Source of the DNA: Flavobacteriales bacterium
GTDB taxonomy: Bacteria; Bacteroidota; Bacteroidia; Flavobacteriales_G; JALEGO01
Direction of reading: 5' to 3'
Length of the DNA stretch: 32,632 bases
Assembly: GCA_022763165.1 (NCBI GenBank)
Contig: JALEGO010000412.1
Span: forward strand, 1-32,632
The notes under the pieces were generated by a model. The model was not told the DNA's origin, ran no database searches, and worked only from the letters and a program-made list of their open reading frames with translations. Position numbers and translations under genes: made by a program. Of this stretch, positions 4,502 through 31,469 are shown piece after piece; position 1 is the stretch's first letter; the number at the start of each line of letters is the position of its first letter.

Positions 4502-7500
4502 TTGATCAATCTGAGACTTCATAAACTTTTGACACTTATACTTGTGCATTTGAGTATTTTATCAAATGCTCAATTAAATGTCCTTAACACTCCACAAAAC
4601 ACAAATGGCTCGCCTGTTTGGCTGATAGAAAATGTGCTCTTAGGCAATGGCGTTACGGCAACCAACATAAGCTTTCAAGGAGATTCCAATGTTCAGGTTG
4701 GGTTTTTTGATCAAAACAATTCCAATATCCCATTATCAAGCGGAATTATTATGACAACGGGAAATATTGGACTGGCTCCTGGAAGTCCTGGAAATTTTCA
4801 GCCGAATGCTGGTCTTGATCTTGCCAGTGGGGCAGGAGACCCAGATTTACAATCCCTCGTTGGCGGTGCATCTACCAATGATGCTATTATTCTTGAGTTT
4901 GATTTTGTTCCTTTAGGAGACTCCGTCAGCTTTAACTATGTTTTTGCTTCGGAAGAATACCCTGAATGGGTTTGTTCCAATTTTAATGATGTATTTGGTT
5001 TTTTTATTAGCGGACCAGGAATAAACGGTTCTTTCAGCAATGGCGCTGCTAACATTGCGCTTATCCCTGGAACTTCGACTCCCGTTGCCATCAACTCTGT
5101 AAATCCAGGTGTATCTGGGAACAACGGACAGGACTTAAATTGTGATAACCTTGATCCCAATTGGCCAAACTACAATATCTATTATAACGACAATGTTGGT
5201 GCAGGCGGAAATGCAATTGAATATGACGGGTTCACAACTGTGCTGACTGCTTTTAGAACTGGATTGCAGTGTGGTCAAGTTTATCACATAAAACTCGCTA
5301 TAGCTGATGTCTTTGACGGAACCTTCGATTCAGCCGTTTTCTTGGAGCAGGGAAGTTTTACAGCTCCAGGTATTAAAGTCGAGGTCAAAACAGTAACCGG
5401 AGATGAAACCATGATTGAAGGATGTGCGGAAGCCAATTTTATTTTCATCAGACCTGATACCATCGGCTTTGATTCCGTGTCATTTGACATCGCAGGAAAC
5501 GCAATCAATGGTGTAGATTATTCATTTCTGAGTAACACCGTAATCTTTCAGCCAGGAGAAGATAGCGTAACAGTAACCATTTCTCCAATCGCTGATGGAG
5601 TAGCAGAAGGCACTGATACTGTGATCGTAACCGTCATGAATATAACACAATGTGGAGACACTGTTTTCGAAACAGCAGAACTCTTTATTGTTGATGGATA
5701 CAATCTTCCTATTTCAGCCAATAATGTTTCCATTACCTGTCCGAATGATACCGTAACAATATCTGCTAATGCTTCCGGAGGGACTCCTCCTTACGACTAT
5801 GTATGGAGCAATGGTGATAACAATCAATCCACTGATGTGTCTCCATTTGCTACGGATACGTTTTTTGTTACGGCTACTGACTTTCCCGGATGCCCTGGTA
5901 TTGATACCGTTATAGTGACGGTGTTAAATCCCAACCCTCCGATTTTCGCTGGGGTTGATACAGGCTTTTGCTTAGGGGACAGTATTCAACTACTTGCTAC
6001 AGGAGGGGTCAGTTATTTATGGAGCCCACCCTCTGGGTTGAGCAGTACTAATATTCCTAATCCATTTGCATTTGGAGGCGGCATTAATACTTATTTCGTG
6101 ACTGGTACAGACGTAAATGGCTGCCAGAATATAGACACAATCGTGGTTACTGGAGACTCAATCCCTTTCATTCAAGTTCGAACTGATACAGCAATATGCC
6201 TCAATGATTCCATTCAATTAGGAGGTAATCCTTCTGGCCCTGGCAACGCCACTTTCTCTTGGTCTCCTACAGGATCACTTAACGATGCAAGTAGCGATAA
6301 TCCCTGGGCTACACCAAATATTTCAACGCAATATATCTTGACTGTCATCAGTGCAGGAAATTGTGCCACAACAGATACTGTTGACATTACTGTTTTGACT
6401 TTACCTGTCGTTACTTCAAGTAATGATACTCAAATTTGTTCTGGAGATACAATACCCTTATTCGCTAGTGGCGGATTGAATTATTTATGGTCTCCAGGAA
6501 TTTCATTGAGTTCAAATAATATTTCAACACCAGACGCCTTTCCAAGCGATACTACAAACTACATTGTTTCTGTCACAGATGCCAATAACTGTACTTCCAC
6601 AGATACCGTGCTGGTTATTGTAAACCCTCTCCCCGCTGCTGAGGCCGGACAAAACTCCTGGCTATGCCCTGGTTCAAATTTCCAATTGAACGCTTCCGGT
6701 GGTCAGACTTATGCTTGGTTTCCAAATCAGTTCTTAACGGATAGTTCAATCAATAACCCGGTAGCAACTCCTCCTGATACAATTGTCTATTACGTTATCG
6801 TAACAGACTCAAACAACTGTGTCAATATCGATTCTATTCAGCTTGATGTTGGCAATGTTGTTCCGGTTAACGCTGGAAATGACACAGGGGTTTGTATTCA
6901 AGATACTATTGCTCTAGGCGGTAGCCCTACTGCTCCACCTGGATCCGACTATGCTTGGGCCCCAAATATTTTCATAAATGATACCACTTTGGCAAACCCA
7001 TTAGTGAGTCCAAATATTGCCATTCAATACACAGTTTTCGTAACCAATGACACTTGTTCTGGAGCAGATACAATTAATCTTGTCGTTTACAATCTTCCAA
7101 ATGTTGATGCCTTTGGAGACACTTCAATATGCTTGAACGACTCTACCTTATTGGTGGCTACTGGAGGCATTGGGTTTTCATGGAGTCCAGTAAATGGCTT
7201 AAGCAGCCCAAATGACGATAGCACCTATGCGTCACCCGATTCGACAACAATGTATTTTGTCGAAATCACGGATACAAACAATTGTTCTGTGACAGATTCA
7301 GTAGAAGTAGAAATCTTCAATCTTCCCATACCCATCTCAAGCAACGATACCACTATTTGCATAGGAGATACCATCCAATTGACAAGCTCTGGAGGACAAT
7401 CATATTTGTGGAGCCCTAATATATCTATACTAAACCAAACAAATGACACTGCTCTAGCCTTTCCTCAGGACACGGTGATTTACATGGTCCTGGTTACGGA

Positions 7501-8989
7501 TAGCAATAACTGTAGTACTTTCGATACTGTTGCCGTTAATGTTTTCCCTAGAGTTGATGTAACAATATTTGGAGATACCTCCTTGTGTATTGGAGATAGC
7601 GTTTCACTATCAGCTTCAGGAGCAATTTCTTACGCTTGGAGTCCTGGATCTATTATTCTGCCCATTTCAGCTGACTCTATTTTGGCATTCCCTACAAGCA
7701 ATGATTCTATTTATTTGACAACGATTGACACGAATAATTGTCAAAAGACAGACACGATCCTTTTGACTGTTAATAATTTACCAGTTATAACCCTCCAGGA
7801 TTCCCTCTTTTTATGTCTTTTTGATACAGCAACGATTCCTGTTTCCGGAGCACAAAATTATACCTGGAACCCATCGGGCTCTCTGCAAATGACAGGAAAT
7901 GACTCCGTTTCCTTTTTCACTACAGATACAAGCTTCATTCAACTAGCAGCAACAGATGTAAATGGTTGCATTAGTTTTGATTCAATTTTTGTGCTTACAT
8001 ACCCTCTTCCAGAACTTGGTCTCAGTTCTGACACTTCAACCTGCGCACAAGATAGTGTTAATGTCACGGCAGCCGGAACCGGTACTTTTCTTTGGACACC
8101 TATCACCGGAATTAGCAACCCAGGTAGTGCTTCTGTAACCATTGCACCGCCAATTGACTCAATGGTCTATAGTGTTCAATTAACAGATTCAAATAATTGC
8201 GTGAATAATCAGTCAACAACCATTTATACTTTTGGGATAAGCATCTCTAGCGATACAGCGATTTGTGATGCTGAGCGTTTTCAATTTGCAACTACAGTCA
8301 TTGGCGGCAACGAACCTATTCGCTATACATGGATGCCGAGTGAAAACCTCTCGGACCCTTTAGTTGCAGAACCTTTCGTGAATATTGCAAACAACACCTT
8401 GTTTACCTTGATTGCTATTGACACAACCGGATGTGCGGATACCGCTATTTCAACTTTGGATGTCAAAAGCAATCCTCTCGCAAACTTTGATATGGACATA
8501 TTGCCCAGTTGTGAAGGCGTGCTTGTAAAGTTAGATAACAGCAGCCTCAATGCCTTGAGTGCTACATGGTACATCAATGATGATGACAGCTCTTTTGTTG
8601 ACAACATCGAGAGGGTTTTTGAATATGGCGATTCCGTTAATGTCAGATTATTAGTTGTAAACGCTGAAAACTGTGTTGATGACACCATCACAAATCTAAA
8701 CTTAAACACTTTCAAAGAGTACATGGATTTTGATTTAGCAAATGTCTTCACGCCAAATTTTGATGGGCAAAACGAATGGTTCGAGCTGAATATTGCCAAT
8801 GATTTGCAGGATTGTTCTGAGTTGAGAATTTTCAATCGGTGGGGACAATTGATGTTCATTTCCCAAGGCAATAATCACTCATGGAACGGAAGAAGCTTTG
8901 ATGGACAAGAGGCTCCAGAAGGAGTTTATTTCTATACACTTGAAGTTTCAGAATTAGACTTTAGCGGCTACATTCAACTCATTCGTTAG
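4502..8989 (+). CDS. Large secreted T9SS type-B (gliding motility-associated C-terminal domain) adhesin-like protein with choice-of-anchor-L, Calx-beta-like and about 12 repeated Ig/PKD-like modules
   Basis: Signal peptide 'LRLHKLLTLILVHLSILSNAQ'; 'FVFASEEYPEW...FNDVFGFFISGPG' region typical of choice-of-anchor L; 'GVDYSFLSNTVIFQPGEDSVTVTISPIADGVAEGTDTVIVTV' Calx-beta-like; repeats 'C.NDSIQL.ATGG.SYLWSP..GLS....NP.A.P..T..Y.V.VTD.NNC...D'; C-terminal 'VFTPNFDGQNEWFEL...LRIFNRWGQLMFIS...WNGRSFDGQEAPEGVYFYTLEV'. TTG start immediately after the asd stop. Confidence 0.88.
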   Translation: MINLRLHKLLTLILVHLSILSNAQLNVLNTPQNTNGSPVWLIENVLLGNGVTATNISFQGDSNVQVGFFDQNNSNIPLSSGIIMTTGNIGLAPGSPGNFQPNAGLDLASGAGDPDLQSLVGGASTNDAIILEFDFVPLGDSVSFNYVFASEEYPEWVCSNFNDVFGFFISGPGINGSFSNGAANIALIPGTSTPVAINSVNPGVSGNNGQDLNCDNLDPNWPNYNIYYNDNVGAGGNAIEYDGFTTVLTAFRTGLQCGQVYHIKLAIADVFDGTFDSAVFLEQGSFTAPGIKVEVKTVTGDETMIEGCAEANFIFIRPDTIGFDSVSFDIAGNAINGVDYSFLSNTVIFQPGEDSVTVTISPIADGVAEGTDTVIVTVMNITQCGDTVFETAELFIVDGYNLPISANNVSITCPNDTVTISANASGGTPPYDYVWSNGDNNQSTDVSPFATDTFFVTATDFPGCPGIDTVIVTVLNPNPPIFAGVDTGFCLGDSIQLLATGGVSYLWSPPSGLSSTNIPNPFAFGGGINTYFVTGTDVNGCQNIDTIVVTGDSIPFIQVRTDTAICLNDSIQLGGNPSGPGNATFSWSPTGSLNDASSDNPWATPNISTQYILTVISAGNCATTDTVDITVLTLPVVTSSNDTQICSGDTIPLFASGGLNYLWSPGISLSSNNISTPDAFPSDTTNYIVSVTDANNCTSTDTVLVIVNPLPAAEAGQNSWLCPGSNFQLNASGGQTYAWFPNQFLTDSSINNPVATPPDTIVYYVIVTDSNNCVNIDSIQLDVGNVVPVNAGNDTGVCIQDTIALGGSPTAPPGSDYAWAPNIFINDTTLANPLVSPNIAIQYTVFVTNDTCSGADTINLVVYNLPNVDAFGDTSICLNDSTLLVATGGIGFSWSPVNGLSSPNDDSTYASPDSTTMYFVEITDTNNCSVTDSVEVEIFNLPIPISSNDTTICIGDTIQLTSSGGQSYLWSPNISILNQTNDTALAFPQDTVIYMVLVTDSNNCSTFDTVAVNVFPRVDVTIFGDTSLCIGDSVSLSASGAISYAWSPGSIILPISADSILAFPTSNDSIYLTTIDTNNCQKTDTILLTVNNLPVITLQDSLFLCLFDTATIPVSGAQNYTWNPSGSLQMTGNDSVSFFTTDTSFIQLAATDVNGCISFDSIFVLTYPLPELGLSSDTSTCAQDSVNVTAAGTGTFLWTPITGISNPGSASVTIAPPIDSMVYSVQLTDSNNCVNNQSTTIYTFGISISSDTAICDAERFQFATTVIGGNEPIRYTWMPSENLSDPLVAEPFVNIANNTLFTLIAIDTTGCADTAISTLDVKSNPLANFDMDILPSCEGVLVKLDNSSLNALSATWYINDDDSSFVDNIERVFEYGDSVNVRLLVVNAENCVDDTITNLNLNTFKEYMDFDLANVFTPNFDGQNEWFELNIANDLQDCSELRIFNRWGQLMFISQGNNHSWNGRSFDGQEAPEGVYFYTLEVSELDFSGYIQLIR
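6000..8350 (+). repeat. Tandem Ig/PKD-like modules in the 1495-aa adhesin (array begins near 5720)
   Basis: Recurring protein motif D(T/S)..C..D(S/T)..L.A.GG..Y.WSP at roughly 75-80 aa spacing. Confidence 0.75.
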
Positions 8990-10565: not shown

Positions 10566-12168
10566 AGTTAAATTCTCTATTGTTGCTGGCATAGGACTAA
10601 TGTCAATCTATGCCTTAAAACCTTGTCATAAATCTGATTTTCATATTTTGTATAACCAAGACTTGGTCAATGCTCGTCTTGAGTACCTAAAAACGAAAAA
10701 ACCTCCCACCAAAAGAACAATATCTTCTCCTCCAAACATCATTTTAATTCTAGCAGATGATCTGGGTAAAACCGATATCTCAACTTATGGAAGTGAATTG
10801 ATAAAAACCCCAAACATCGATAAAATTGCGAATGAGGGGGTCAAATTCACTGAAGGTTATATTACCTCTCCAATTTGTGCTCCCTCAAGGGCCGGTTTAA
10901 TTACTGGAAGATACCAACAACGGTTCGGCTTTGAACATATCATACATGAACGTTATCCGAAAAACAAACTCGAATATTGGTATTTTAAAACCTTTATGAA
11001 AACTGGAGATTGGCAAGTGCGAGAAGAATTTGTAAAGCCATGTCAAGAAGACATTTTTAAACAGGGTCTTCCCCCCTCAGAAATCACCCTTTCCGAGATC
11101 CTACAAAAGAACGGTTATAAAACGGCCTGTATCGGGAAGTGGCACCTAGGATATAATGAATCTGCAATCCCAATTAACCGAGGCTTTGATTATCAATATG
11201 GTTTTTATGAAGCCTTTACACTTTATAGTGATCCAAAAGACGATAGCATCATTAATCAAAAACACGACTATTTTGCTGATCAACATATATGGAAACAAGG
11301 ACGGAAAGGCAATTGCGCTATAAGAAGAAATCATCATGCTATTCATGAGGATCAGTTTTTAACCGAAAAGCTAGCTAACGAAGCTGTTGATTTTATAAAT
11401 AAAAATAAAGACTATCCCTTTTTCCTGTATGTTCCCTTCCTCACTCCACATACTCCTTTTCAAATCACAAAGAAGTACTTTGATCAATTTGATCATATCG
11501 AAGATCGAAACAAAAGAGTTTATCTAGCAATGATCAAGTCTCTGGATGATGCTATCGGTCAGATTTTAGATGGTGTTGAAGACAATAACCTATCAAACGA
11601 AACTTGCATCATTTTCCTAAGTGACAATGGTGGGGCAACTTATACAAAAGCAACAGATAATGCTCCGCTGAAAGGAGGAAAGTTTACAAACTTTGAAGGT
11701 GGATTAAATGTTCCATTCATCATCAAATTTCCAAATGACCAAGTGAGTTCAAGAGTTTATCAAAAACCGGTTTCTTCTTTGGATATTATGCCAACAATCC
11801 TAGCATTAAGTGGCATCAAAGCTCCAGAAGATAGAAATTACGATGGTGTTAACCTTATACCATTTATTACAGATTCCACCGCTAAAAACCCACATCCAAA
11901 TCTATACTGGAAGAGCGGCTACAATATGGCTATTAGGCAAGACAATTGGAAACTGGTTATCGATAACAAAAGCAAGTCCAAGGCATTGTACAACCTAAAA
12001 GTCGATAAGTCTGAAATAAACAATTTAATCCAAGCAAATTCGTTAAAAGCAGAAGAACTTGAATCTCAACTTGACGAGTGGAAAAAGGATCTAAAGGATC
12101 CATTTTGGCCTTATGTTATGGATTATAAATATGAATTGGCGGGAGATACTTTCTATTTCCCTTTGTAA
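10555..12168 (+). CDS. Sulfatase (type I, formylglycine-dependent)
   Basis: 'PNIILILADDLGKTDISTYGSELIKTPNIDKIANEGVKFTEGYITSPICAPSRAGLITGRYQQRFGFE' contains the C-x-P-S-R formylglycine motif; 'LSDNGGATY...APLKGGKFTNFEGGLNVPFIIKFP'. TTG start overlapping the VOC gene by 11 nt. Confidence 0.92.
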   Translation: MKNKVKFSIVAGIGLMSIYALKPCHKSDFHILYNQDLVNARLEYLKTKKPPTKRTISSPPNIILILADDLGKTDISTYGSELIKTPNIDKIANEGVKFTEGYITSPICAPSRAGLITGRYQQRFGFEHIIHERYPKNKLEYWYFKTFMKTGDWQVREEFVKPCQEDIFKQGLPPSEITLSEILQKNGYKTACIGKWHLGYNESAIPINRGFDYQYGFYEAFTLYSDPKDDSIINQKHDYFADQHIWKQGRKGNCAIRRNHHAIHEDQFLTEKLANEAVDFINKNKDYPFFLYVPFLTPHTPFQITKKYFDQFDHIEDRNKRVYLAMIKSLDDAIGQILDGVEDNNLSNETCIIFLSDNGGATYTKATDNAPLKGGKFTNFEGGLNVPFIIKFPNDQVSSRVYQKPVSSLDIMPTILALSGIKAPEDRNYDGVNLIPFITDSTAKNPHPNLYWKSGYNMAIRQDNWKLVIDNKSKSKALYNLKVDKSEINNLIQANSLKAEELESQLDEWKKDLKDPFWPYVMDYKYELAGDTFYFPL

Positions 12169-12190
12169 CTGGCACGAAATTTGGAGTTTC

Positions 12191-13003
12191 ATGAAAAAGA
12201 GGATTATGAAAACTACGATTTTTTGCGCAACTGCCTTGCTCACATTAAGCACTATTGGTCAGAACCCCAAGAGTTCAGCAAAACACCAAATCACTCCAGC
12301 AGAACACCTCGCTTTTCAAAGAGGTGAAGTTCTGGAATATCGAGTTCACTACGGGTTCGTTGATGCCGGAAACGCACGTATGGAAGTTTCTATGAGTGCT
12401 GATGAAGTCAACGGAAGAACAGCTTACAAATTTGTCGGTACCGGAAAAAGCAACAAGTTTTTTGACATGTTCTTCAAGGTAAGGGATTATTATGTGTCTT
12501 ACATGGATGAAGAAAATCTTACACCCTTAAAATTTGTAAGACGAGTGGATGAAGGGGGGTATAAAATCAAACAAGATTACATTTTCCATCCTGACAGCAA
12601 TAAAGTGGATAACGGGAAAGGCCAGATCGTAGATGTTCCTATAGACGTCCAAGACATGATTTCTGCTTTCTATTATGCCCGAAATTTAGACATGACCGGA
12701 GCTCAAATTGGAGACATCTTTGGTTTACCCTGTTTTCTGGATGATGAAATTTGGGAACTACAAATGAAGTATCTGGGTACAGAAACGCTGAAGGCAGATC
12801 TGGGCAAGTTCGATTGTCTAAAGTTTGCTCCAGTTGTTCAAAAAGGTAGGATTTTTAAGGACGAAGAAGATCTAGTCGTATATATCACAAACGATAAAAA
12901 TAGAATTCCCGTTCAAGCCAAAGCCAACATTCTTGTTGGATCTATTAAAATGGACCTTACCAGTTATGGTGGATTAGCGCATCCAATTGCAAAACTCAAA
13001 TGA
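12191..13003 (+). CDS. DUF3108-like secreted protein
   Basis: ATG 12191 (or 12206) gives signal peptide 'MKKRIMKTTIFCATALLTLSTIGQ'; 'AFQRGEVLEYRVHYGFVDAGNARMEV...KFFDMFFKVRDYYVSYMDEENLTPLKFVRRVDEGGYKIKQDYIF' resembles DUF3108 proteins. The ORF-track start at 12113 lies inside the sulfatase gene. Confidence 0.75.
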   Translation: MKKRIMKTTIFCATALLTLSTIGQNPKSSAKHQITPAEHLAFQRGEVLEYRVHYGFVDAGNARMEVSMSADEVNGRTAYKFVGTGKSNKFFDMFFKVRDYYVSYMDEENLTPLKFVRRVDEGGYKIKQDYIFHPDSNKVDNGKGQIVDVPIDVQDMISAFYYARNLDMTGAQIGDIFGLPCFLDDEIWELQMKYLGTETLKADLGKFDCLKFAPVVQKGRIFKDEEDLVVYITNDKNRIPVQAKANILVGSIKMDLTSYGGLAHPIAKLK

Positions 13004-19414: not shown

Positions 19415-22400
19415 TTATCTAACAAGCGTAATCGTTCCTTTTGTGGACCTAATCTTGGAATTTCCTTCAATGGTATAAGTAACTTTGTACATATAAATAT
19501 CCTGTTTTGCCGGATTTCCATTCTTATTGCCATCCCAGCCCAATTCTAAATCCTCGGTTTGGAAAATAATGTCTCCCCACCTATTGAAGACCAACATCTC
19601 GAATTGTTCTATACGCGTTGCTTCAGGTTTAAAAATATCGTTCAAACCATCGTCATTGGGTGAAAAGGCATTTGGCATAAACAACCCACAATATTCTTCT
19701 ACAACTAAAACAGAATCTTCATACAAGCACCCTGCTGGACTAATCACAGCCAAGTAATTAAACCCAGGTTGTTCCAACAAAAAGAAATTGGTTCCGACTT
19801 CTCCGTTCCAAAGGTGAGTTAGGTCTGAGCTCAGTCCCGAATTGACCGTATAAGATTGACCGCTGCAGATTTGAATCTCTTCTTCCAAACCAATATTCAT
19901 ATTGTCATATGTGATTTCAATTGTGTCTGCATCACTGCATTGACCGGTATTGATCAACACAAAATAGGTTCCCGGTTCATTGATGACCAGAGCCGTATCC
20001 GTACTAAGATCACTCCACAAATGACTGAATTGGGCTGAAGAATTTTGAGGTTGAAGCGTCAGTGTATCCCCTTGACAAAGTAACATATCTTGACCTAAGT
20101 CAGCATTCAATTCAATGACTTCAACATTCACCGTATCCCATGCCCAGCAATCTCCGTTCCCAACCTTCACAAAATATGTTCCTTCATTTTGCACCGCTAT
20201 AGCGCTTGTCGTACTTCCATTATTCCATAGAATATTGCTTGCAGTAGTATCTGAAATTCTGAGTACAACAGTTGCGCCTTCACAAATCGTGGTGTCTGAG
20301 CCTAGATTAAAGTCAAGTGCTCTAAAACCAATCGAAATGGAGTCAAGTGCATTGCACTGAGGACTACCGACAAAAACTGAATAGGTACCACCTTGAACAA
20401 CGCTTATAGATTGTGTTGTTTCTCCTGTACTCCAGAGATAGTTGTTGTTTAGACCAGCGTTAAGCGTAAAACTATCATCGCAAATACTGGTATCGCTTCC
20501 TAACTTCACTTCGGCTGATTCATAAGTAACCCCAATAGTATCTCTCAACAAGCAATTATTATTGCTTATTTCCACATAATGTGTCCCAGAGGTTTGTACA
20601 TAGATTTTGCTATTTGCTATCACTCCATCCCATAAATAGTTTTGAGCAGATGGATGGTAAGCGGATAATAAAACAGAGTCTACATTACAGGCAAATGTAT
20701 CTGGACCAAGGTCCAAGCTCAAGTCATCAAAAGTGACCTGCATTGAGTCGGTGTCAGTGCAAAAACCATCACTTACCGTGATTTGATATGCAGCGCTTTG
20801 GTTTACAGTAATGTTCGAAGTGGTGCTCCCTGTGCTCCACAAGAAATCAGCCCCTTGTCCAAGAACAGTGATAGTTAGAGTTGAGTCTGAACAAACAACA
20901 GTATCATTAGGCAGGTTGGCTTGTGCAAAATTCAAGGTTATATCAATGGTATCACTGAAGGTGCAATTTGCATTTGAAACTGTAAGATTATAAGACCCTG
21001 TTGAATTTATGTAAATGTTCGAAGTTGTCTCTCCGGTATTCCACTGATAAGATGCATTTTGGACTGTGGCTCCTATCAGAAACGAGTCAACATTGCAAAG
21101 TGATGTATCCACCCCTAAGTCAAAATAGAGACTGTCAATTGTCACTTGGATTGTATCTTGATCTGAACAGCCATTAGCATCAGTAGCAGAAACCCAATAT
21201 GTCCCCGTTGTGTTTGCTGTAATTTGATTATTCGTTGAATTATTGCTCCATAAGAATATTCCTTGACTTATTCCAACATTTAAATTCAGAGCACTTCCAT
21301 CGCAAATCGCGGTGTCGGGCCCTAAATCTACTTCAAATTGATTTAGTGTCACTTGAAAAGTATCTACAGAGGTACAAGCGCTACTTGATGAAGTCATTGT
21401 TACGCTATATGTCCCATTGCTATTGACATAAAGATTGTTGCCGGTAGAACCATCACTCCAAACATAGTTATATGAAGCATTCAACGTTAGGTTTGTATCG
21501 GAAAGACATGTTTGGATATTCGCAATATCCACATGAACAGAGTCTATTGTTAATGTAATGGTGTCGGCATCAGAACAAACACCATTTGTTACGGAAACAG
21601 AATAAACACCACTATTCAATGCGGTAAAAGTTTGATTTGTAGAACCATCATTCCACAAATAAGTACTTCCAGAATTTTGGGCATCAAGGGTAATGCTTTG
21701 CCCCAGACACGTTGCATAGTCTGGTCCCAGGTCTACCTCCAAACTCCCGATAGAAACATTGATAGAATCCATTGCGCTGCAACCATTTTGAAATACCTCA
21801 ACAATATAAGAGCCACTATTCAATACATAAATGTTATTATTCGTATCTCCCGTAGACCATAAGGTAGAATCCCAATTGCCGCTTGAACTGAGTAAAACGG
21901 AGTCATTAATACAATCCGTTACATCCGACCCTAAATCAATTGTGATTCCTAAAATTTGGACATCAATGGAGTCGCTCGCAACACAGGTGCCATCGGTCAC
22001 AGTTAAAACATAAAGGCCTGAAGCACTAACACTAATGCTATTTGCTGTTTCACTATTTGACCATAAGTAATTTATTCCTGCGTTCGAGTTGTTACTCGCC
22101 AATATGAGTGAAGTATCACATGTACTGGTATCACTTCCAAGATTTTCGGTAAGGTGTCTTAATTCAATTGTGAAAGTATCTGTAGCAGTGCAGTGTTGTT
22201 TTGTCACATCAATGAAATAAACTCCATTATTCTGTACCCAAATTGAAGTATCAGTTTGACCTGTGCTCCATGAGTAGCTATCAAAATTATCTTGAGGATC
22301 AATCAATATGGAATCTTGATTGCAAGTCACTGAGTCAGATATGTCTACAAGTAGTCCCATCTCAATTTGAACTGAATCAATCCCAAAACATCCATTATTC

Positions 22401-25400
22401 GAAACAGTAACAGCATAAATTCCAGATGTATTAACTGTCTCAGTCTGGCTATAACCACCTGTAGACCAGCTAAATGTACTCCCAGTATGTGAGGCATCCA
22501 AGGTAATTGAGCCGGGTGTACACAACAGAGTATCATTTCCAAGATCTACAGCAAAATCCGATAAGTAAACATTAACAGTATCTGTTTCTTGACAACCCGA
22601 TTGCGAACTTACGGTAACAATATAAGTCCCGGAATTCGTAGCCTGAATTACTTGCGAATTGCTTCCTGTGTTCCATTGAAAATAGTTCCCGGGATTACTG
22701 GCATCTAACCAAATTCCCCATGGATTGCTCCCATTGCAATCATAAATATCAGGTCCTAAATTGAGAGAAATGTTACCTGTCGTTGCTGTTACCACAGCCG
22801 TGTCTGACGCAGTGCATCCGTTAGCATCTGTAGCTGTAACGCTGTACGTTCCGGGCTGATTGACGGTTATGCTGTTGGTTGTGCTTCCATTGCTCCACAA
22901 TAAAGTCAGAGCTGAGTTATTTACACTAAAGGTAGCTGAAGCACCACTACAAATTAGCTTATCTGGTCCAATGTTAATGATTGGGGCGCTCATCAATACA
23001 TTGATAGTATCTTTATCAGTGCATGCCCCAGAGCCTACTGTTACATGATAGTTCCCACTGGATGTGACAACGAGCGTCTGAGCAGTAGAGCCATCGCTCC
23101 ATTGATACGTACTACCAGGGTTACCTGCATCTAAAGTCAAAGAACCTGAACAAAAGGTGGTGTCATTGCCGAGATTGACATTTAAACTACCCCCAACAGT
23201 CACCTGGATGGTATCTCTATCTGTACATGTTCCCGAGCTCACTGTCACGTGGTAGGTTCCGCTAGTTGCAACAACCAAAGACTGAGCTGTAGAACCATTG
23301 CTCCATTGATAAGTGCTGCCTGGGTTGCCCGCATCCAATGTCATAGACCCTGAGCAGAAGGTGGTGTCATTACCAAGATCAACAGATAGTGCCTTTATCC
23401 CAATTGTGACCGTGTCCCTTTCAAAACATCCGTTGGCATCCAAAACTGTAACATGGTACGTTCCGGTACCCACCGAATTAGTTTGGTTGGTAGAAGAATC
23501 ACTCCAACAATACAAATCATATATACCTCCAGGATCCAGAGTTATTGTAGTTCCGGGGCAGATAAGCGTATCCTCAAGATCAAAATCATTATCAGGAAAT
23601 GCTGCAAGATTAACTGATTCAGAGCCAGAACAACCATTAAAATCAGTGACAGTCACGGCATAAGTGCCTGGATTAAGTGTAGAAATACTTGAAGTTGTGG
23701 CGCCATTGCTCCACGCAAATTGACTATAATTTTGATAGGTAGAAATAGTAACAGGATCCTCTGAGCAAACACCAGGGTCTGTTAAAGCCAAGTTGGGATT
23801 TACAGTTTTGTTGCCAATGAAAATGTCATGATGCTTTGTACAGCCATTCACCTCATAAGTAATCGTGACGGTCGTTCCTCCCAATCCAGAAGCACTAAAA
23901 ATACCGTTTGAAGCGACTCCTATTCCAGACCAGGAGCCTCCCAAATTTCCTATTACGTAGTCGTTGAGATCAACAGTAGCGTTTAAACAAATCGTATCAG
24001 GGTTTATCCAAGCAGGATTCGAGTTTGGCGAAGGATTAAACTTTGCTAAAAACGCCCCGGAATTAAATGTTCCCCCGTTGGATGTGCTGAGTACATTACA
24101 AGAACTTGTAAATTGACTCTCATTATAATAAATTCCAGAGAGGTAAACGTTTCCATTAGCATCAATTGTTATGCCCTTTGCTTCGTCAGCAAGGGCCCCA
24201 GCGTGATTTAAGTTTTTCTGAGCCCATTGTAACGTTCCGTTTAAGTCATAGGAAGCAGCAAAAGCACCTGTAGCAAATCCGCTACTTAGAATATATGAAG
24301 CATTGGGGTTCGGATCAAAATCAGCATCTCCAATGATGTCCATTCCTCCAATAACCAATGCATTGTTTTTCAATTCAGCATCAAACAGGTGTAGGGCGTT
24401 GTTGTAACTGTTCAGCACTTTATACCATAGAAATTTACCTTGTGGACTGTACTTGGCAAAGTAGATCGCCTGAGGACCTATTGGGTTGGTTGCAATCGAA
24501 TTTGTAGAGCCGTTTTGAGGATCAAAATCAATTCCATTGGGTGCATCGAAGTTCCCTACAACATAAATGTTTCCATTTTGATCAGAAAGTGGTTTTTTGA
24601 TTTGATTATGTTCTCCCTCTATCAAATTGGCCCAAATTAGGGTGCCGTCAATTCCTTTGTACTTAGCAACGTAAGCACTATTGTTTATGGAGCTTAGAGA
24701 TCGCACACCACTGCTTGGGTCAAAATCTACCGTAGTGTTAATTCCTCCAGTTATGATGATGTCATCATTCGCATCAAATGTACAATTCAAAATAGCATTA
24801 ACTCCAATGTATGAAATATCATTATCGACAGTAAATCCGAAAAGAAGCAGTCCATTTTGGTCATACTTGCAAATAAACTGTGAATACCCTCCAACTTGGG
24901 AACTCAAGTTATATGTGGCTCCCATTGGATTGAAGTTTACGTTTTGACCGCTGAACCTGCCCGTAACCAACATCTCGCCCTGACTATTAACATCCATCCC
25001 CATAACATAATAATGATTATGCATATGATTGGTTCCAAAAGTTCCTGGGTTAAAGGCTCCTTGTAGGTTGAAGGCCCAAACTAAACCTCCTGAGGAAGAA
25101 TACTTGGCAATAAAATAATCATGATTGGTAGCCGAAAGGATGTGGTTTCCAGCGGAAGGATCAAAATCAACATTTTGGTTTTCAAAAGTCCCTGAAATAT
25201 AAACGTTGTTCTGGTCATCAATGTCAAAATAACCAAAGAGCCCCTTATCTCCTGCCGCAGAGGCAGCCCTGTTCACAGGAATGTCAAAACCCCATACTAA
25301 GTTGCCAGAATTATCATATTTTCCAAGAAACGTTCCTAAACCCGGAACAATTTGAGGAGTCATACTCAAAACACCAGCTCCAGGGTCAACATCAATTGTT

Positions 25401-25582
25401 CCTGCAAATGAGCCGTACACTATGATATCGTCATTCTGATCGACTTTGACATAAGGATACAGTTCATTGCTCGAATTCTCATCAGTAATATTGAACAGAT
25501 CATAAGCATATTGACTAAAAACTACAGAGCAAATGCACCACAGAAGTATAGTTAGACAATATTTATTGATTTGAATTATCAT
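19415..25582 (-). CDS. Giant T9SS type-B secreted protein: N-terminal SBBP-like propeller (about 7 blades) + about 20 Ig-like modules + gliding motility-associated C-terminal domain
   Basis: Signal peptide 'MIIQINKYCLTILLWCICSVVFSQ'; blades 'GSFAGTIDVDPGAGV...', 'GTFENQNVDFDPSAGNHILSATNHDYFIAKYSSSGGLVWAFNL' etc.; modules '(V/N)DLG.DT..C...LTLDA...GSTY.WS.GST...I.V...GTY.V.V..G.C...D'; C-terminal 'LFMPNAFSPNDDGLNDIFKPEA...EMLVFNRWGDIIFQTEDLELGWDGNKNGNPAKQDIYMYKVTYTIEG'. Confidence 0.9.
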   Translation of the reverse strand: MIIQINKYCLTILLWCICSVVFSQYAYDLFNITDENSSNELYPYVKVDQNDDIIVYGSFAGTIDVDPGAGVLSMTPQIVPGLGTFLGKYDNSGNLVWGFDIPVNRAASAAGDKGLFGYFDIDDQNNVYISGTFENQNVDFDPSAGNHILSATNHDYFIAKYSSSGGLVWAFNLQGAFNPGTFGTNHMHNHYYVMGMDVNSQGEMLVTGRFSGQNVNFNPMGATYNLSSQVGGYSQFICKYDQNGLLLFGFTVDNDISYIGVNAILNCTFDANDDIIITGGINTTVDFDPSSGVRSLSSINNSAYVAKYKGIDGTLIWANLIEGEHNQIKKPLSDQNGNIYVVGNFDAPNGIDFDPQNGSTNSIATNPIGPQAIYFAKYSPQGKFLWYKVLNSYNNALHLFDAELKNNALVIGGMDIIGDADFDPNPNASYILSSGFATGAFAASYDLNGTLQWAQKNLNHAGALADEAKGITIDANGNVYLSGIYYNESQFTSSCNVLSTSNGGTFNSGAFLAKFNPSPNSNPAWINPDTICLNATVDLNDYVIGNLGGSWSGIGVASNGIFSASGLGGTTVTITYEVNGCTKHHDIFIGNKTVNPNLALTDPGVCSEDPVTISTYQNYSQFAWSNGATTSSISTLNPGTYAVTVTDFNGCSGSESVNLAAFPDNDFDLEDTLICPGTTITLDPGGIYDLYCWSDSSTNQTNSVGTGTYHVTVLDANGCFERDTVTIGIKALSVDLGNDTTFCSGSMTLDAGNPGSTYQWSNGSTAQSLVVATSGTYHVTVSSGTCTDRDTIQVTVGGSLNVNLGNDTTFCSGSLTLDAGNPGSTYQWSDGSTAQTLVVTSSGNYHVTVGSGACTDKDTINVLMSAPIINIGPDKLICSGASATFSVNNSALTLLWSNGSTTNSITVNQPGTYSVTATDANGCTASDTAVVTATTGNISLNLGPDIYDCNGSNPWGIWLDASNPGNYFQWNTGSNSQVIQATNSGTYIVTVSSQSGCQETDTVNVYLSDFAVDLGNDTLLCTPGSITLDASHTGSTFSWSTGGYSQTETVNTSGIYAVTVSNNGCFGIDSVQIEMGLLVDISDSVTCNQDSILIDPQDNFDSYSWSTGQTDTSIWVQNNGVYFIDVTKQHCTATDTFTIELRHLTENLGSDTSTCDTSLILASNNSNAGINYLWSNSETANSISVSASGLYVLTVTDGTCVASDSIDVQILGITIDLGSDVTDCINDSVLLSSSGNWDSTLWSTGDTNNNIYVLNSGSYIVEVFQNGCSAMDSINVSIGSLEVDLGPDYATCLGQSITLDAQNSGSTYLWNDGSTNQTFTALNSGVYSVSVTNGVCSDADTITLTIDSVHVDIANIQTCLSDTNLTLNASYNYVWSDGSTGNNLYVNSNGTYSVTMTSSSSACTSVDTFQVTLNQFEVDLGPDTAICDGSALNLNVGISQGIFLWSNNSTNNQITANTTGTYWVSATDANGCSDQDTIQVTIDSLYFDLGVDTSLCNVDSFLIGATVQNASYQWNTGETTSNIYINSTGSYNLTVSNANCTFSDTIDITLNFAQANLPNDTVVCSDSTLTITVLGQGADFLWSTGSTTSNITVNQSAAYQITVSDGFCTDTDSMQVTFDDLSLDLGPDTFACNVDSVLLSAYHPSAQNYLWDGVIANSKIYVQTSGTHYVEISNNNCLLRDTIGVTYESAEVKLGSDTSICDDSFTLNAGLNNNYLWSTGETTQSISVVQGGTYSVFVGSPQCNALDSISIGFRALDFNLGSDTTICEGATVVLRISDTTASNILWNNGSTTSAIAVQNEGTYFVKVGNGDCWAWDTVNVEVIELNADLGQDMLLCQGDTLTLQPQNSSAQFSHLWSDLSTDTALVINEPGTYFVLINTGQCSDADTIEITYDNMNIGLEEEIQICSGQSYTVNSGLSSDLTHLWNGEVGTNFFLLEQPGFNYLAVISPAGCLYEDSVLVVEEYCGLFMPNAFSPNDDGLNDIFKPEATRIEQFEMLVFNRWGDIIFQTEDLELGWDGNKNGNPAKQDIYMYKVTYTIEGNSKIRSTKGTITLVR
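19800..23780 (-). repeat. Tandem Ig-like modules (about 20) in the 2055-aa protein
   Basis: Recurring '(V/N)(D/N)LG.D...C...LTL.A....Y.WS.GST...I.V...GTY.V.V..G.C...D.I.V' at roughly 65-70 aa spacing. Confidence 0.8.
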
Positions 25583-25856: not shown

Positions 25857-26795
25857 ATGAGAACCTTACTAACTGCAATGGCTTGTATAATAGTTATTGC
25901 TGCAACAGCACAACTATCACTTAGCAATCAAGAAATTTACGATTTTGAAATTGGAGATGTTTTTCACTACGAAAGCTATGTTTACAACGGGGGGACAGCA
26001 GACGGCAAACATCATATTCAATCCTATCTAAAGGTAATAGGAAAAACAGTGACGTCAAATGTGGTTACATACAAATTTCACCGCTATGCCATTGATCATT
26101 ATTCCGGTTCTTCAATGACCGACCCAAGTTACACAGATACCTCTGTCACCTATCCCGAAATATCATATGTACTTAACGCAACATATTTCGATACCACGCT
26201 TTGCGATTCCTCATCCACTAGCTTTGAACCCTGGTGTTTTGGGCCTTCAACCTTTCCTCAAATAGGTCATCAAGTTGATGTTTATTGCGCTACATTTGAT
26301 ACGTTGGGAGTCGATTCTGTTTTTAACTATCGCCAATTCTATGTGGGCTGTAGCGTAAGTTCAAACTGTTTTGAAACGCAAGGAACTCAGCAGAAATTTG
26401 TTGAAGGTTTGGGTAGAACAAACTATTGGTATTCTGATTACGATCCGGGAATTGGTCAAGGGTATAGCTCAATTGAGAACCTTGTTTATTACAGCAAAAC
26501 CAATGGAGAAACATGGGGAAGTCCACTGCCTCTTAGTATAAGTGAAAACAAAGCTTCCTATATTGAATCCCTAAGTTTGTATCCGAATCCAGCAAAGGAT
26601 TTTATCAAAATTCAAGGAGAATATGCTAAACCAAAAGATTTAACCATTTATAATCAAATGGGGCAAGTCGTTTTCGCTAAACAAGAAGCCCGAAATTCAA
26701 TTCAGGTTGATGTCTCCAATTGGAGTAACGGTCATTATTACGTTCAAATTAAATCCCAAAATCAGCTAAAGCATCTGAAATTTGTAAAAAACTAA
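25857..26795 (+). CDS. Secreted protein with T9SS type-A sorting domain
   Basis: Signal peptide 'MRTLLTAMACIIVIAATAQLS'; C-terminal 'LSLYPNPAKDFIKIQGEYAKPKDLTIYNQMGQVVFAKQEARNSIQVDVSNWSNGHYYVQIKSQNQLKHLKFVKN'. Confidence 0.88.
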   Translation: MRTLLTAMACIIVIAATAQLSLSNQEIYDFEIGDVFHYESYVYNGGTADGKHHIQSYLKVIGKTVTSNVVTYKFHRYAIDHYSGSSMTDPSYTDTSVTYPEISYVLNATYFDTTLCDSSSTSFEPWCFGPSTFPQIGHQVDVYCATFDTLGVDSVFNYRQFYVGCSVSSNCFETQGTQQKFVEGLGRTNYWYSDYDPGIGQGYSSIENLVYYSKTNGETWGSPLPLSISENKASYIESLSLYPNPAKDFIKIQGEYAKPKDLTIYNQMGQVVFAKQEARNSIQVDVSNWSNGHYYVQIKSQNQLKHLKFVKN

Positions 26796-28941: not shown

Positions 28942-29643
28942 CTAGAATCCTACTCGTTTAATAGATCTGGAGCTAAACTTTTTTGATGTCTCCGTTTTTA
29001 TTTCATTGCGTTGCGATATATAATCAGCGTAACTTTTAGAATACTTTACTCTGTTTTCAATGACCGTGTCAAAAGTATCTGAAAGCGCCAAAATTACCTC
29101 GCTTATCTCGCGAACAGCATTATTTCCTCCTTGATGGGCTGTAATATAATCGGCAAGTTTGTTTTTGACAATATATTCCTCGAGAAGAGGAGAGGCTGTT
29201 CTACAAACATTGAAATTAAGTCCACAGATTTCGCTAGCGCTTAAGTCCAGAATATCGTCATAAACAAAAATTATTTCTTCTGTGGTAATTTTGAGATCTG
29301 TTGCTATCTCACCGATTGCTTCCGCTTTCTTTTTGACTCCCAAAAAGATGCAATCCAGATGCTCTCTCTCAGCAAAATTAACAGCTATAGGATTGTGTTC
29401 TCCCGTAACAATATATGTCTTAAGGTTCTTACTTCCTTCCAACCAAAAATGAAATCTCATCATGTTCAGCCCCATTGAATCTGGCTCAGAAAAGGTACTT
29501 CCAAATAAGTGGTTCTTCGTGCCATTATTGAAAACGCCATCCCAATCAAAAACAAGGGCTTTAATAGACTTGAGCTTGGTGGTTATCTCTTTAGGTTTTG
29601 AGATGAATTTACCGCCAAGTTCTTCGAACTTTTTTACATCCAT
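28942..29643 (-). CDS. KdsC-like HAD phosphatase (divergent)
   Basis: 'IKALVFDWDGVFNNG' (HAD motif I DxD), 'YIVTGEHNPIAVNFAERE', 'KKKAEAIGEIATDL', 'IIFVYDDILDLSASEICGLNFNVCRTASPLLEEYIVKNKLADYITAHQGGNNAVREISEVILAL' matches the KdsC/YrbI layout. Confidence 0.8.
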   Translation of the reverse strand: MDVKKFEELGGKFISKPKEITTKLKSIKALVFDWDGVFNNGTKNHLFGSTFSEPDSMGLNMMRFHFWLEGSKNLKTYIVTGEHNPIAVNFAEREHLDCIFLGVKKKAEAIGEIATDLKITTEEIIFVYDDILDLSASEICGLNFNVCRTASPLLEEYIVKNKLADYITAHQGGNNAVREISEVILALSDTFDTVIENRVKYSKSYADYISQRNEIKTETSKKFSSRSIKRVGF

Positions 29644-29650
29644 ATATGGA

Positions 29651-30658
29651 TCAAATTAAATCCTGAATGTCTACTATGCCGGCAAAATCTCCATTATTTG
29701 TTGCAATGAGGTTGTCAACATGTCGTTCTCGACACAAATCAATGGCATCTTGTAGTGTGGCTTCGGCATCTATTGTTATGGGATTTTGACCCTCGAGTTC
29801 CGATAGTTTCAGTGCATGAATGTCTTGACCGTTTTGCTCTATAAGCCTTCTCAGATCACCATCAGTGAAGATTCTATAAATAGCCTCATTGTCATCTAGT
29901 ACTGCCACAGCCCCAAGTTTTGATTTAGACATTTGTAAAACCGCATCAATTACTTTGGCGTTTCCACTAATCTTCACATCTTCCTTTTTCATGACCTCTT
30001 CAACCTTTGTGGTAACCAAACGCGTATCAACAACAAACTGATTTGTTCCAATTGCCGTGAAGTGATTATCAGTTAGTTTTTTCATGAGTTTCCATGGAAC
30101 CGTGCATGTGTGCACACCAATATGCAAGGCGTTCTTAACATGTTCAACGTTTCTAACAGAAGAAAACATGATTTTTGATTTGTATCCATACTTCTGTGTG
30201 ATTTCAACACATTCTTTAACCAAACCCAGAGCATCATGTCCTTGGTCCTGCAATCGACCAACTAGAGGACAAACATAAGTCGCTCCTGCCCTAAACGCCA
30301 TATAAGCCTGCTGCACAGTGTAGACCAAATGCAGGTTTACCATAAACCCTTCATCAGTAAGCCTTTTGCAGGCAATCGTTCCATCCAGGGATATTGGTAT
30401 TTTAAAAACTGTTTTTGTTTTATCGAGTCCAATTGAAACAAGCCTTTTTGCTTCATCCACAATCTCATCCACACTGTCCCCAAGAGCCTCTACTTGTAAG
30501 ATATCGACATACTTTGCAATTTCAAGCATTTGGGCGTCAACATCCTTAATCCCTTCACGCAACATAAACGTTGGGGTGGTAGTAAGGCCAGTGAGGTAGC
30601 CCAATTTACTGCCTTCCTTTATCTCTTCGAGGTTGACTGAGTCTAAGTACAGTTCCAT
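29651..30658 (-). CDS. Transaldolase-family (FSA/TalC-like) domain fused to a KdsD-type CBS-domain pair
   Basis: N-terminus 'MELYLDSVNLEEIKEGSKLGYLTGLTTTPTF...TVFKIPISLDGTIACKRLTDEGFMVNLHLVYTVQQAYMAFRAGATYVCPLVGRLQDQG' (TIM-barrel transaldolase, Schiff-base Lys86 candidate). C-terminus 'VEEVMKK...LGAVAVLDDNEAIYRIFTDGDLRRLIEQ...ERHVDNLIATNNGDFAGIVDIQDLI' closely resembles KdsD CBS domains. Start set at ATG 30658; the track start 30694 overlaps kdsA. Confidence 0.88.
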   Translation of the reverse strand: MELYLDSVNLEEIKEGSKLGYLTGLTTTPTFMLREGIKDVDAQMLEIAKYVDILQVEALGDSVDEIVDEAKRLVSIGLDKTKTVFKIPISLDGTIACKRLTDEGFMVNLHLVYTVQQAYMAFRAGATYVCPLVGRLQDQGHDALGLVKECVEITQKYGYKSKIMFSSVRNVEHVKNALHIGVHTCTVPWKLMKKLTDNHFTAIGTNQFVVDTRLVTTKVEEVMKKEDVKISGNAKVIDAVLQMSKSKLGAVAVLDDNEAIYRIFTDGDLRRLIEQNGQDIHALKLSELEGQNPITIDAEATLQDAIDLCRERHVDNLIATNNGDFAGIVDIQDLI

Positions 30659-30659
30659 A

Positions 30660-31469
30660 TTATCTATATTTTTTCTCTGTGTTATGAATTTCAATTAGAG
30701 GCTTTAGAAATTCCTCTAAGTCATTTAAATCTAATTGGCTTGCCGCATCACATAGGGCTTTGCTTGGTTCAGGGTGTGCTTCGATGAAAACACCATCTAC
30801 CCCTGCAGCCACGCCAGATCTTGCCAAAGTTGGCAAGTACTGTCTTAATCCCCCTGAAGGGTCGGAGCTCGGGATACCATACTTTCTGATAGAATGTGTA
30901 ATATCAAAAATTGTCGGGTATCCAATTTCTCTAAGATCATAAAAACTTCTTGGGTCAACTATGAGGTCATTGTATCCAAAGGTATAACCTCTTTCGGTGA
31001 GCAATATATTCTTATTACCAACAGATTCTATCTTTTTCACTGGCTTGGCCATGTTTTCTGGAGCCAAAAATTGACCATGCTTAAGGTTAATCACTTTTCC
31101 TGTCTTTGCAGATTCAACAACCAATGTCGTTTGCATACACAAATATGCAGGAATCTGAATGATGTCCAGTACTTCACCGCAAGCAGCAACTTGTTCTGGG
31201 AAGTGAACATCAGAAAGGATTGGAAGATTGAATTCTTTTTTGATTTTTTCCAAAATTCTAAGACCTTCCTCAAGTCCTGGGCCTGTATAATAATCAACCG
31301 AACTCCTGTTATCCTTCATAAATGAAGACTTGAAAACTAAAGGTAGCTCAAGCCGTTCTGAAATTTCTTTCAGTCGTTCAGCCGTATTCATCATTAACCG
31401 CTCGTCTTCAATCACACAGGGGCCTGAAATCAAAAAGAACTTTTCCCAACTCAACTTATCTACATTCAT
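30660..31469 (-). CDS. KdsA-like 3-deoxy-ulosonate-8-phosphate synthase (divergent)
   Basis: 'FFLISGPCVIEDERLMMNTAERLKEI', 'FKSSFMKDNRSSVDYYTGPGLEEGLRIL', 'ILSDVHFPEQVAACGEVLDIIQIPAYLCMQTTLVVESAKTGKVINLKHGQFLAPENM', 'NILLTERGYTFGYNDLIVDPRSF', 'PTIFDITHSI', 'GVDGVFIEAHPEPSKALCDAASQL'. Confidence 0.85.
   Translation of the reverse strand: MNVDKLSWEKFFLISGPCVIEDERLMMNTAERLKEISERLELPLVFKSSFMKDNRSSVDYYTGPGLEEGLRILEKIKKEFNLPILSDVHFPEQVAACGEVLDIIQIPAYLCMQTTLVVESAKTGKVINLKHGQFLAPENMAKPVKKIESVGNKNILLTERGYTFGYNDLIVDPRSFYDLREIGYPTIFDITHSIRKYGIPSSDPSGGLRQYLPTLARSGVAAGVDGVFIEAHPEPSKALCDAASQLDLNDLEEFLKPLIEIHNTEKKYR

Follow-up and report, generated by a model that had tools for sequence, protein, structure and literature searches.

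Kdo anchors the lipopolysaccharide of the outer membrane; most Gram-negative bacteria cannot do without its synthesis, of which KdsD is regarded as the first committed enzyme. A contig of a Flavobacteriales bacterium carries a kdsA-like gene, a gene for a transaldolase fused to CBS domains (tal-CBS) and a kdsC-like gene side by side, and the original prediction for this locus was a pathway to an unusual 3-deoxy-ulosonic acid. Does the trio make such a sugar, or does it make Kdo with a different enzyme in the place of KdsD? We analysed the locus in its window (i.e. the whole stretch of 32,632 nucleotides), in the genome of the window and among related genomes.

Layout of the locus

The three genes are nearly contiguous on the minus strand, exactly as had been described from the sequence: kdsA (30660–31469; 269 aa), a 3-deoxy-8-phosphooctulonate synthase of the DAHP_synth_1/KDO8P synthase family that falls in a Tal-linked clade; tal-CBS (29651–30658, with its ATG at 30658 and its stop at 29651; 335 aa), whose product combines a TAL/FSA-type class I aldolase barrel with two CBS domains and is the proposed supplier of D-arabinose 5-phosphate (A5P); and an extended form of kdsC-like HAD phosphatase (28942–29643; 233 aa). 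The intergenic gaps are 1 base (kdsA/tal-CBS) and 7 bases (tal-CBS/kdsC-like), and a scan of the trio for promoters and terminators gave counts equal to the shuffled expectation. No KdsB is encoded within the window, as was also noted at the outset; a canonical KdsB and WaaA are found elsewhere in the genome (contigs C24 and C730, respectively).

Wza/Wzc-like genes about 26 kb from the trio had been taken as a hint that its product goes to surface glycans. These genes are present at 3–2952, where a Poly_export/SLBB protein, truncated at the start of the contig, is followed by a Wzz/GNVR/AAA_31 protein at the contig edge, but we reject a functional link because unrelated genes (i.e. a class I tRNA synthetase, signal peptidase II and T9SS cargo) lie in the 26 kb between. 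The window also encodes large secreted proteins that bear signals for type IX secretion (CHU_C, Por_Secre_tail) at 4502–8989, 19415–25582 and 25857–26795, and a sulfatase (PF00884; 10555–12168) followed by a DUF3108 protein (12113–13003).

Conservation and spread of the trio

Among the 84 Tal-CBS loci with enough flank on both sides to be counted, 54 carry the whole trio, with kdsA upstream and the kdsC-like gene downstream on the same strand, so that chance is ruled out as the source of the arrangement. The other loci have kdsC only (17), kdsA only (5) or neither neighbour (8). Median gaps across the Tal-CBS loci are ∼20 and ∼7 bases. Nine genomes of the order (G011, G014, G015, G029, G032, G033, G035, G038 and G040) have their kdsB coordinates immediately upstream of kdsA and in the same orientation, which makes a full CMP-Kdo operon in which Tal-CBS takes the position of KdsD. 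The neighbourhoods examined show no capsule or glycosyltransferase cluster that accompanies the trio consistently.

Full-length Tal-CBS occurs in 17 of the 42 genomes of the window's order. A scan of the collection returned at least 558 Tal-CBS-related stretches, and the best 80 of these (at least 558) matches come nearly all from Bacteroidota; cultured hosts among the scan matches listed are Raineya orbicola, Thermonema rossianum, Thermoflexibacter ruber and Flexithrix dorotheae. Two Tal-CBS trios (L067 and L104) lie in assemblies labelled Proteobacteria and Desulfobacterales, which may reflect a transfer from Bacteroidota into these lineages or incorrect binning of the contigs. Genus g11 has a distinctive gene content: twelve of its genomes (G017–G028) keep KdsB (loci L179, L182–L184, L188, L189, L194, L203, L205, L209 and L210), nearly all of them keep WaaA, and no KdsA, KpsF SIS domain or Tal-CBS was found in them. 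Genome G016 of the same genus (UBA1993) contains on contig C15 a window-like trio with a Tal-CBS identity of 67% (L004 and L045), which suggests that the cassette was transferred into a KdsA-less lineage.

Complementarity with KpsF/KdsD

We then compared the distribution of Tal-CBS with that of the SIS-type isomerase. KdsA is present in 25 of the 42 genomes of the order, and each of these 25 has either Tal-CBS (17 genomes, all without SIS-type KpsF) or KpsF/KdsD (eight genomes, all without Tal-CBS), never both and never neither. The remaining 17 genomes, without KdsA, have neither enzyme; G036 contains only a 110-residue Tal-CBS-like CBS fragment. Seven of the eight KpsF proteins score above the cut-off and the eighth, in G005, is a SIS-only protein beside kdsA. 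That locus (contig C253, 38851–40093), in which a KpsF of 208 aa adjoins kdsA, provides an example of a KdsD without CBS domains. Both types (i.e. Tal-CBS genomes and KpsF genomes) are present in genus g12.

A random assignment of the labels to the 25 genomes would give the observed split with a chance of one in C(25,8), or ∼1 in a million, an improbability that is lessened by the relatedness of the genomes. Only about three Tal/KpsF switches are needed on the WaaA tree of the order, so that a phylogeny-corrected test of the complementarity is powerless, and the independent-pairs test is not significant. The class sample includes four Tal-CBS genomes from as many families, none of which has the KpsF SIS domain; of the other genomes in the sample, a single one is without it. 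Likewise, KpsF is missing in 40 of the 46 further Tal-CBS genomes among the collection-scan matches listed. Tal-CBS behaves as a third alternative for the A5P slot.

Domains and active site of Tal-CBS

The protein consists of a barrel (residues 1–213) and two CBS domains (residues 215–335), with Pfam matches to TAL_FSA and CBS and none to SIS. Its score exceeds the general Pfam TAL_FSA cut-off alone and stays below that of TIGR00875 (158.5 versus 245.95 bits); against TIGR00393, only model positions 154–267 match. The best solved relatives of the CBS half are A5P isomerases (4o9k, 1.6e-16; 3fna, 2.3e-12; 3k2v, 4.9e-12), and the next CBS protein follows at 1.3e-6. The structure 4o9k is reported to have been solved with CMP-Kdo bound, which would make the CBS pair a putative feedback sensor, as in KdsD.

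The nearest solved relatives of the barrel are the TalC-type transaldolases 1vpx and 3r8r, with an identity of 35–37%. Lys86 (the Schiff-base residue), Asp6, Glu57, Asn108, Arg135 and Ser167 are invariant in 88 sequences, and comparison with E. coli FSA and TalC indicates that Glu57 and Asn108 are as in TalC. Other positions of the active site are replaced: Asn28 of the FSA donor pocket is Thr28 in 88/88 sequences, Ala129 of FSA (Ala/Ser129 in FSA/TalC) is Cys130 in 87/88, and Thr109 and Tyr131 (Tyr/Phe131) of the water triad are His110 and Leu132 in 88/88, giving E57-H110-L132 where FSA and TalC have Gln/Glu-Thr-Tyr/Phe. In FSA, Asn28 and Ala129 bind dihydroxyacetone, and Gln59, Thr109 and Tyr131 hold the catalytic water (PMC13259622). 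Loss of the dihydroxyacetone grips with retention of the lysine fits a smaller donor.

The KdsA and KdsC-like partners

The KdsA of the window passes the TIGR01362 equivalog (334.6 bits against a cut-off of 314) as well as NF003543. It keeps C18, K47, K52, N54, R55, S56, D87, Q105, K130, R160, H192, E230 and D241, which we take to be the metal (e.g. the ligand Cys18), PEP and Asn-Arg-Ser A5P-phosphate motif residues. On the tree, the trio KdsAs and the KpsF-linked KdsAs form a fully supported split with 19 group-specific columns. The motif KANRSS is KDNRSS and Arg106 of Aquifex is Met112 in 46/46 trio KdsAs, whereas KANR(S/T) and Arg106 are kept in 12/12 KpsF-linked ones. Near-invariant changes in the trio KdsAs (45–46 of 46) are Ala47→Asp, Phe103→Tyr, Arg106→Met, Lys125→His and Gln188→Arg. 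The changes at 47, 103, 106 and 188 lie on the A5P side of the pocket, so that the aldose of the trio KdsA could differ; the metal and PEP residues are unchanged. The arginine gained at 188, in the loop over the pocket, could offset the loss of Arg106.

The kdsC-like protein has D33, D35, K106, D129, D130 and D133 invariant in 73/73 sequences. It scores below all KdsC cut-offs of the curated models (e.g. 63 versus 208 bits and 47.9 versus 106.95 bits). The earlier view of the locus as a conserved, co-evolving Kdo-type pathway set is borne out by the frequency of complete trios, the separate KdsA clade with its own columns and the place of Tal-CBS at the aldose-phosphate supply slot.

The genome and subclade of the window

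The genome of the window is a fragmented assembly (5.5 Mb, 809 contigs, completeness of 85.9%). A second complete canonical Kdo set had been envisaged as the sign of a specialised role; the assembly contains, besides a DAHP-synthase relative, a single KdsA, together with the KdsB and WaaA mentioned above, and no SIS-type A5P isomerase (KpsF/KdsD) was found in it, although at this completeness a KpsF may have been missed. The SIS matches L033–L036 were considered as a hidden KdsD and rejected on names read from their sequences: L033 and L034 belong to one GlmS-like, 624-aa protein with two SIS domains, L035 resembles part of a MurQ, and L036 would be a 326-aa SIS protein of the Pgi/Pmi type.

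The Tal-CBS tree places the window in an eight-member clade (support 99), whose members are scattered patchily among assemblies with the names Saprospiraceae, Flavobacteriales, Bacteroidales and Cytophagaceae. KpsF is also present in four of these eight genomes, three of which have a second, canonical KpsF-type KdsA; in the remaining 55 rows of the tree only two genomes contain KpsF. This suggests that the trio in this subclade may be an accessory Kdo module or a second Kdo set.

Kdo or another sugar

The enzymes that recognize the finished sugar provide a means of judging the product. KdsB and WaaA of the Tal-CBS genomes intermix with those of the KpsF genomes, with no group-specific column, and this favours ordinary Kdo. 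In the genome of the window, the single KdsA, the lack of a detected A5P isomerase and the unchanged KdsB and WaaA point to a replacement of the A5P supply in a pathway that ends in Kdo, and they speak against the unusual 3-deoxy-ulosonic acid that was originally proposed. A genome with the trio as its only source of these genes and with ordinary Kdo as the product had been named at the outset as the outcome that would refute a new sugar, and the assembly, as far as it goes, agrees with that outcome.

It is improbable that the product of the trio is a 3-deoxy-2-ulosonic acid different from Kdo, with Tal-CBS producing another aldose phosphate and the altered KdsA condensing it with PEP. The separate clade and pocket changes of the trio KdsA and a kdsC-like enzyme under every KdsC cut-off would suit such a pathway, but the Tal-CBS genomes, mostly without another KdsA, nevertheless have ordinary KdsB and WaaA, the Asn-Arg-Ser motif and the residues for metal and PEP are intact in the trio KdsA, and the sensor half of Tal-CBS is KdsD-like. 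Two remnants keep the idea of a new sugar alive at low probability (i.e. the changes in the pocket where KdsA binds A5P and the KpsF set in half of the window's subclade). A related proposal, that the lipid A-linked ulosonic acid of trio-reliant Bacteroidota is a Kdo variant that Tal-CBS and the altered KdsA build from another aldose phosphate and that a tolerant KdsB activates and a tolerant WaaA transfers, seems to us improbable as well. We consider it possible, but somewhat doubtful, that in the window's subclade the trio is a horizontally spread accessory Kdo module for a surface polysaccharide, working beside or instead of the housekeeping set by analogy with KpsF/KpsU for capsules. The patchy occurrence of the subclade and the KpsF and second KdsA of some of its members would fit such a module; the inconsistent association with capsule or glycosyltransferase clusters and the lack of a detected second KdsA or KpsF in the window's 85.9% complete genome do not. 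The accessory role is compatible with the chemistry proposed below.

Proposed pathway

Complementarity with KpsF, linkage to kdsB, the KdsD-like CBS half and unchanged KdsB and WaaA together indicate that Tal-CBS most likely supplies A5P. We consider it likely, on these comparative grounds, that Tal-CBS has taken over the KdsD step as a non-orthologous enzyme, with A5P as its putative product. Lys86 would form a Schiff base with a small donor, likely glycolaldehyde, and add it to glyceraldehyde 3-phosphate (GAP) to give A5P; KdsA would then condense A5P with PEP to Kdo8P, the kdsC-like HAD enzyme would remove the phosphate of Kdo8P, and KdsB (encoded beside the trio in relatives) would make CMP-Kdo for WaaA. 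We know of no steady source of glycolaldehyde, which counts against this donor. By our own reasoning, folate-derived glycolaldehyde was rejected as the sole source because the flux is judged too small, and isomerization of Ru5P via a C2 Schiff base was rejected because an amine on C2 cannot yield a C1 aldehyde. Formation of A5P from glycolaldehyde and GAP is a reaction of E. coli FSA (PMC6298115, PMC9947464).

Tal-CBS could play the same pathway role by a different reaction, i.e. by making A5P from ribose 5-phosphate (R5P) through Schiff-base epimerization at C2 or through retro-aldol cleavage and re-addition, with His110 as acid/base and no release of free glycolaldehyde. R5P is plentiful and differs from A5P only in its configuration at C2, the invariant change from threonine to histidine at the catalytic-water position (88/88) would provide the acid/base, and a free toxic aldehyde is not required. 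To our knowledge, however, the TAL/FSA family has no epimerase member. Moreover, the stereochemistry of FSA already yields A5P from glycolaldehyde and GAP (PMC6298115), and we regard the R5P route as unlikely. Least probable by far is that Tal-CBS is a mere housekeeping transaldolase that lies between kdsA and kdsC by chance: its barrel is homologous to the TalC-type enzymes 3r8r and 1vpx (35–37% identity), but most Tal-CBS genomes of the order have a separate TalC (those examined have canonical residues), the active site of Tal-CBS is rewritten and its sensor is KdsD-like, and it occurs in the order only with KdsA and excludes KpsF in most genomes.

Implications and comparison with known systems

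With Tal-CBS as the probable A5P supplier, many Bacteroidota seem to make Kdo with a transaldolase-like enzyme instead of the usual isomerase, and the textbook first step of Kdo synthesis probably has a second, undescribed solution. KdsD appears to be absent, and an aldolase-type enzyme to be used instead, in a large part of the Bacteroidota. The literature searched, which leaves out most subscription journals, contains no description of Tal-CBS or of a KdsD gap in Bacteroidetes. If true, this replacement would close a systematic gap in the annotation of genomes, would be a natural counterpart of the FSA reaction to A5P used in designed pathways, and would mean that a sensor domain was kept while the adjoining catalytic domain was exchanged.

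Tal-CBS shares with KdsD/KpsF/GutQ, which consist of SIS and two CBS domains, the pathway position and the CBS half, and it fills the slot where KdsA occurs without KpsF. By contrast, it lacks SIS and has in its place a TAL/FSA class I aldolase barrel, i.e. another fold with another chemistry (a Schiff-base lysine). With FSA and TalC-MipB transaldolases (TIGR00875) it has in common the barrel fold, the Schiff-base lysine, Asp6 and the phosphate-binding arginine and serine, but it differs from them in its replaced donor pocket and water triad (Thr28, His110, Cys130 and Leu132), its fusion to CBS domains and its linkage to kdsA and kdsC. The trio KdsA keeps the metal ligands and PEP residues of the metal-type KDO8P synthases (Cys11 type) and passes their models (TIGR01362, NF003543), while it belongs to a clade of its own, which 19 group-specific columns distinguish from the KpsF-linked KdsAs within the phylum. 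Similarly, the kdsC-like protein has the HAD catalytic residues and its best curated match is KdsC (YrbI), but it exceeds the KdsC model in length by about 45 residues and scores well under its cut-off.
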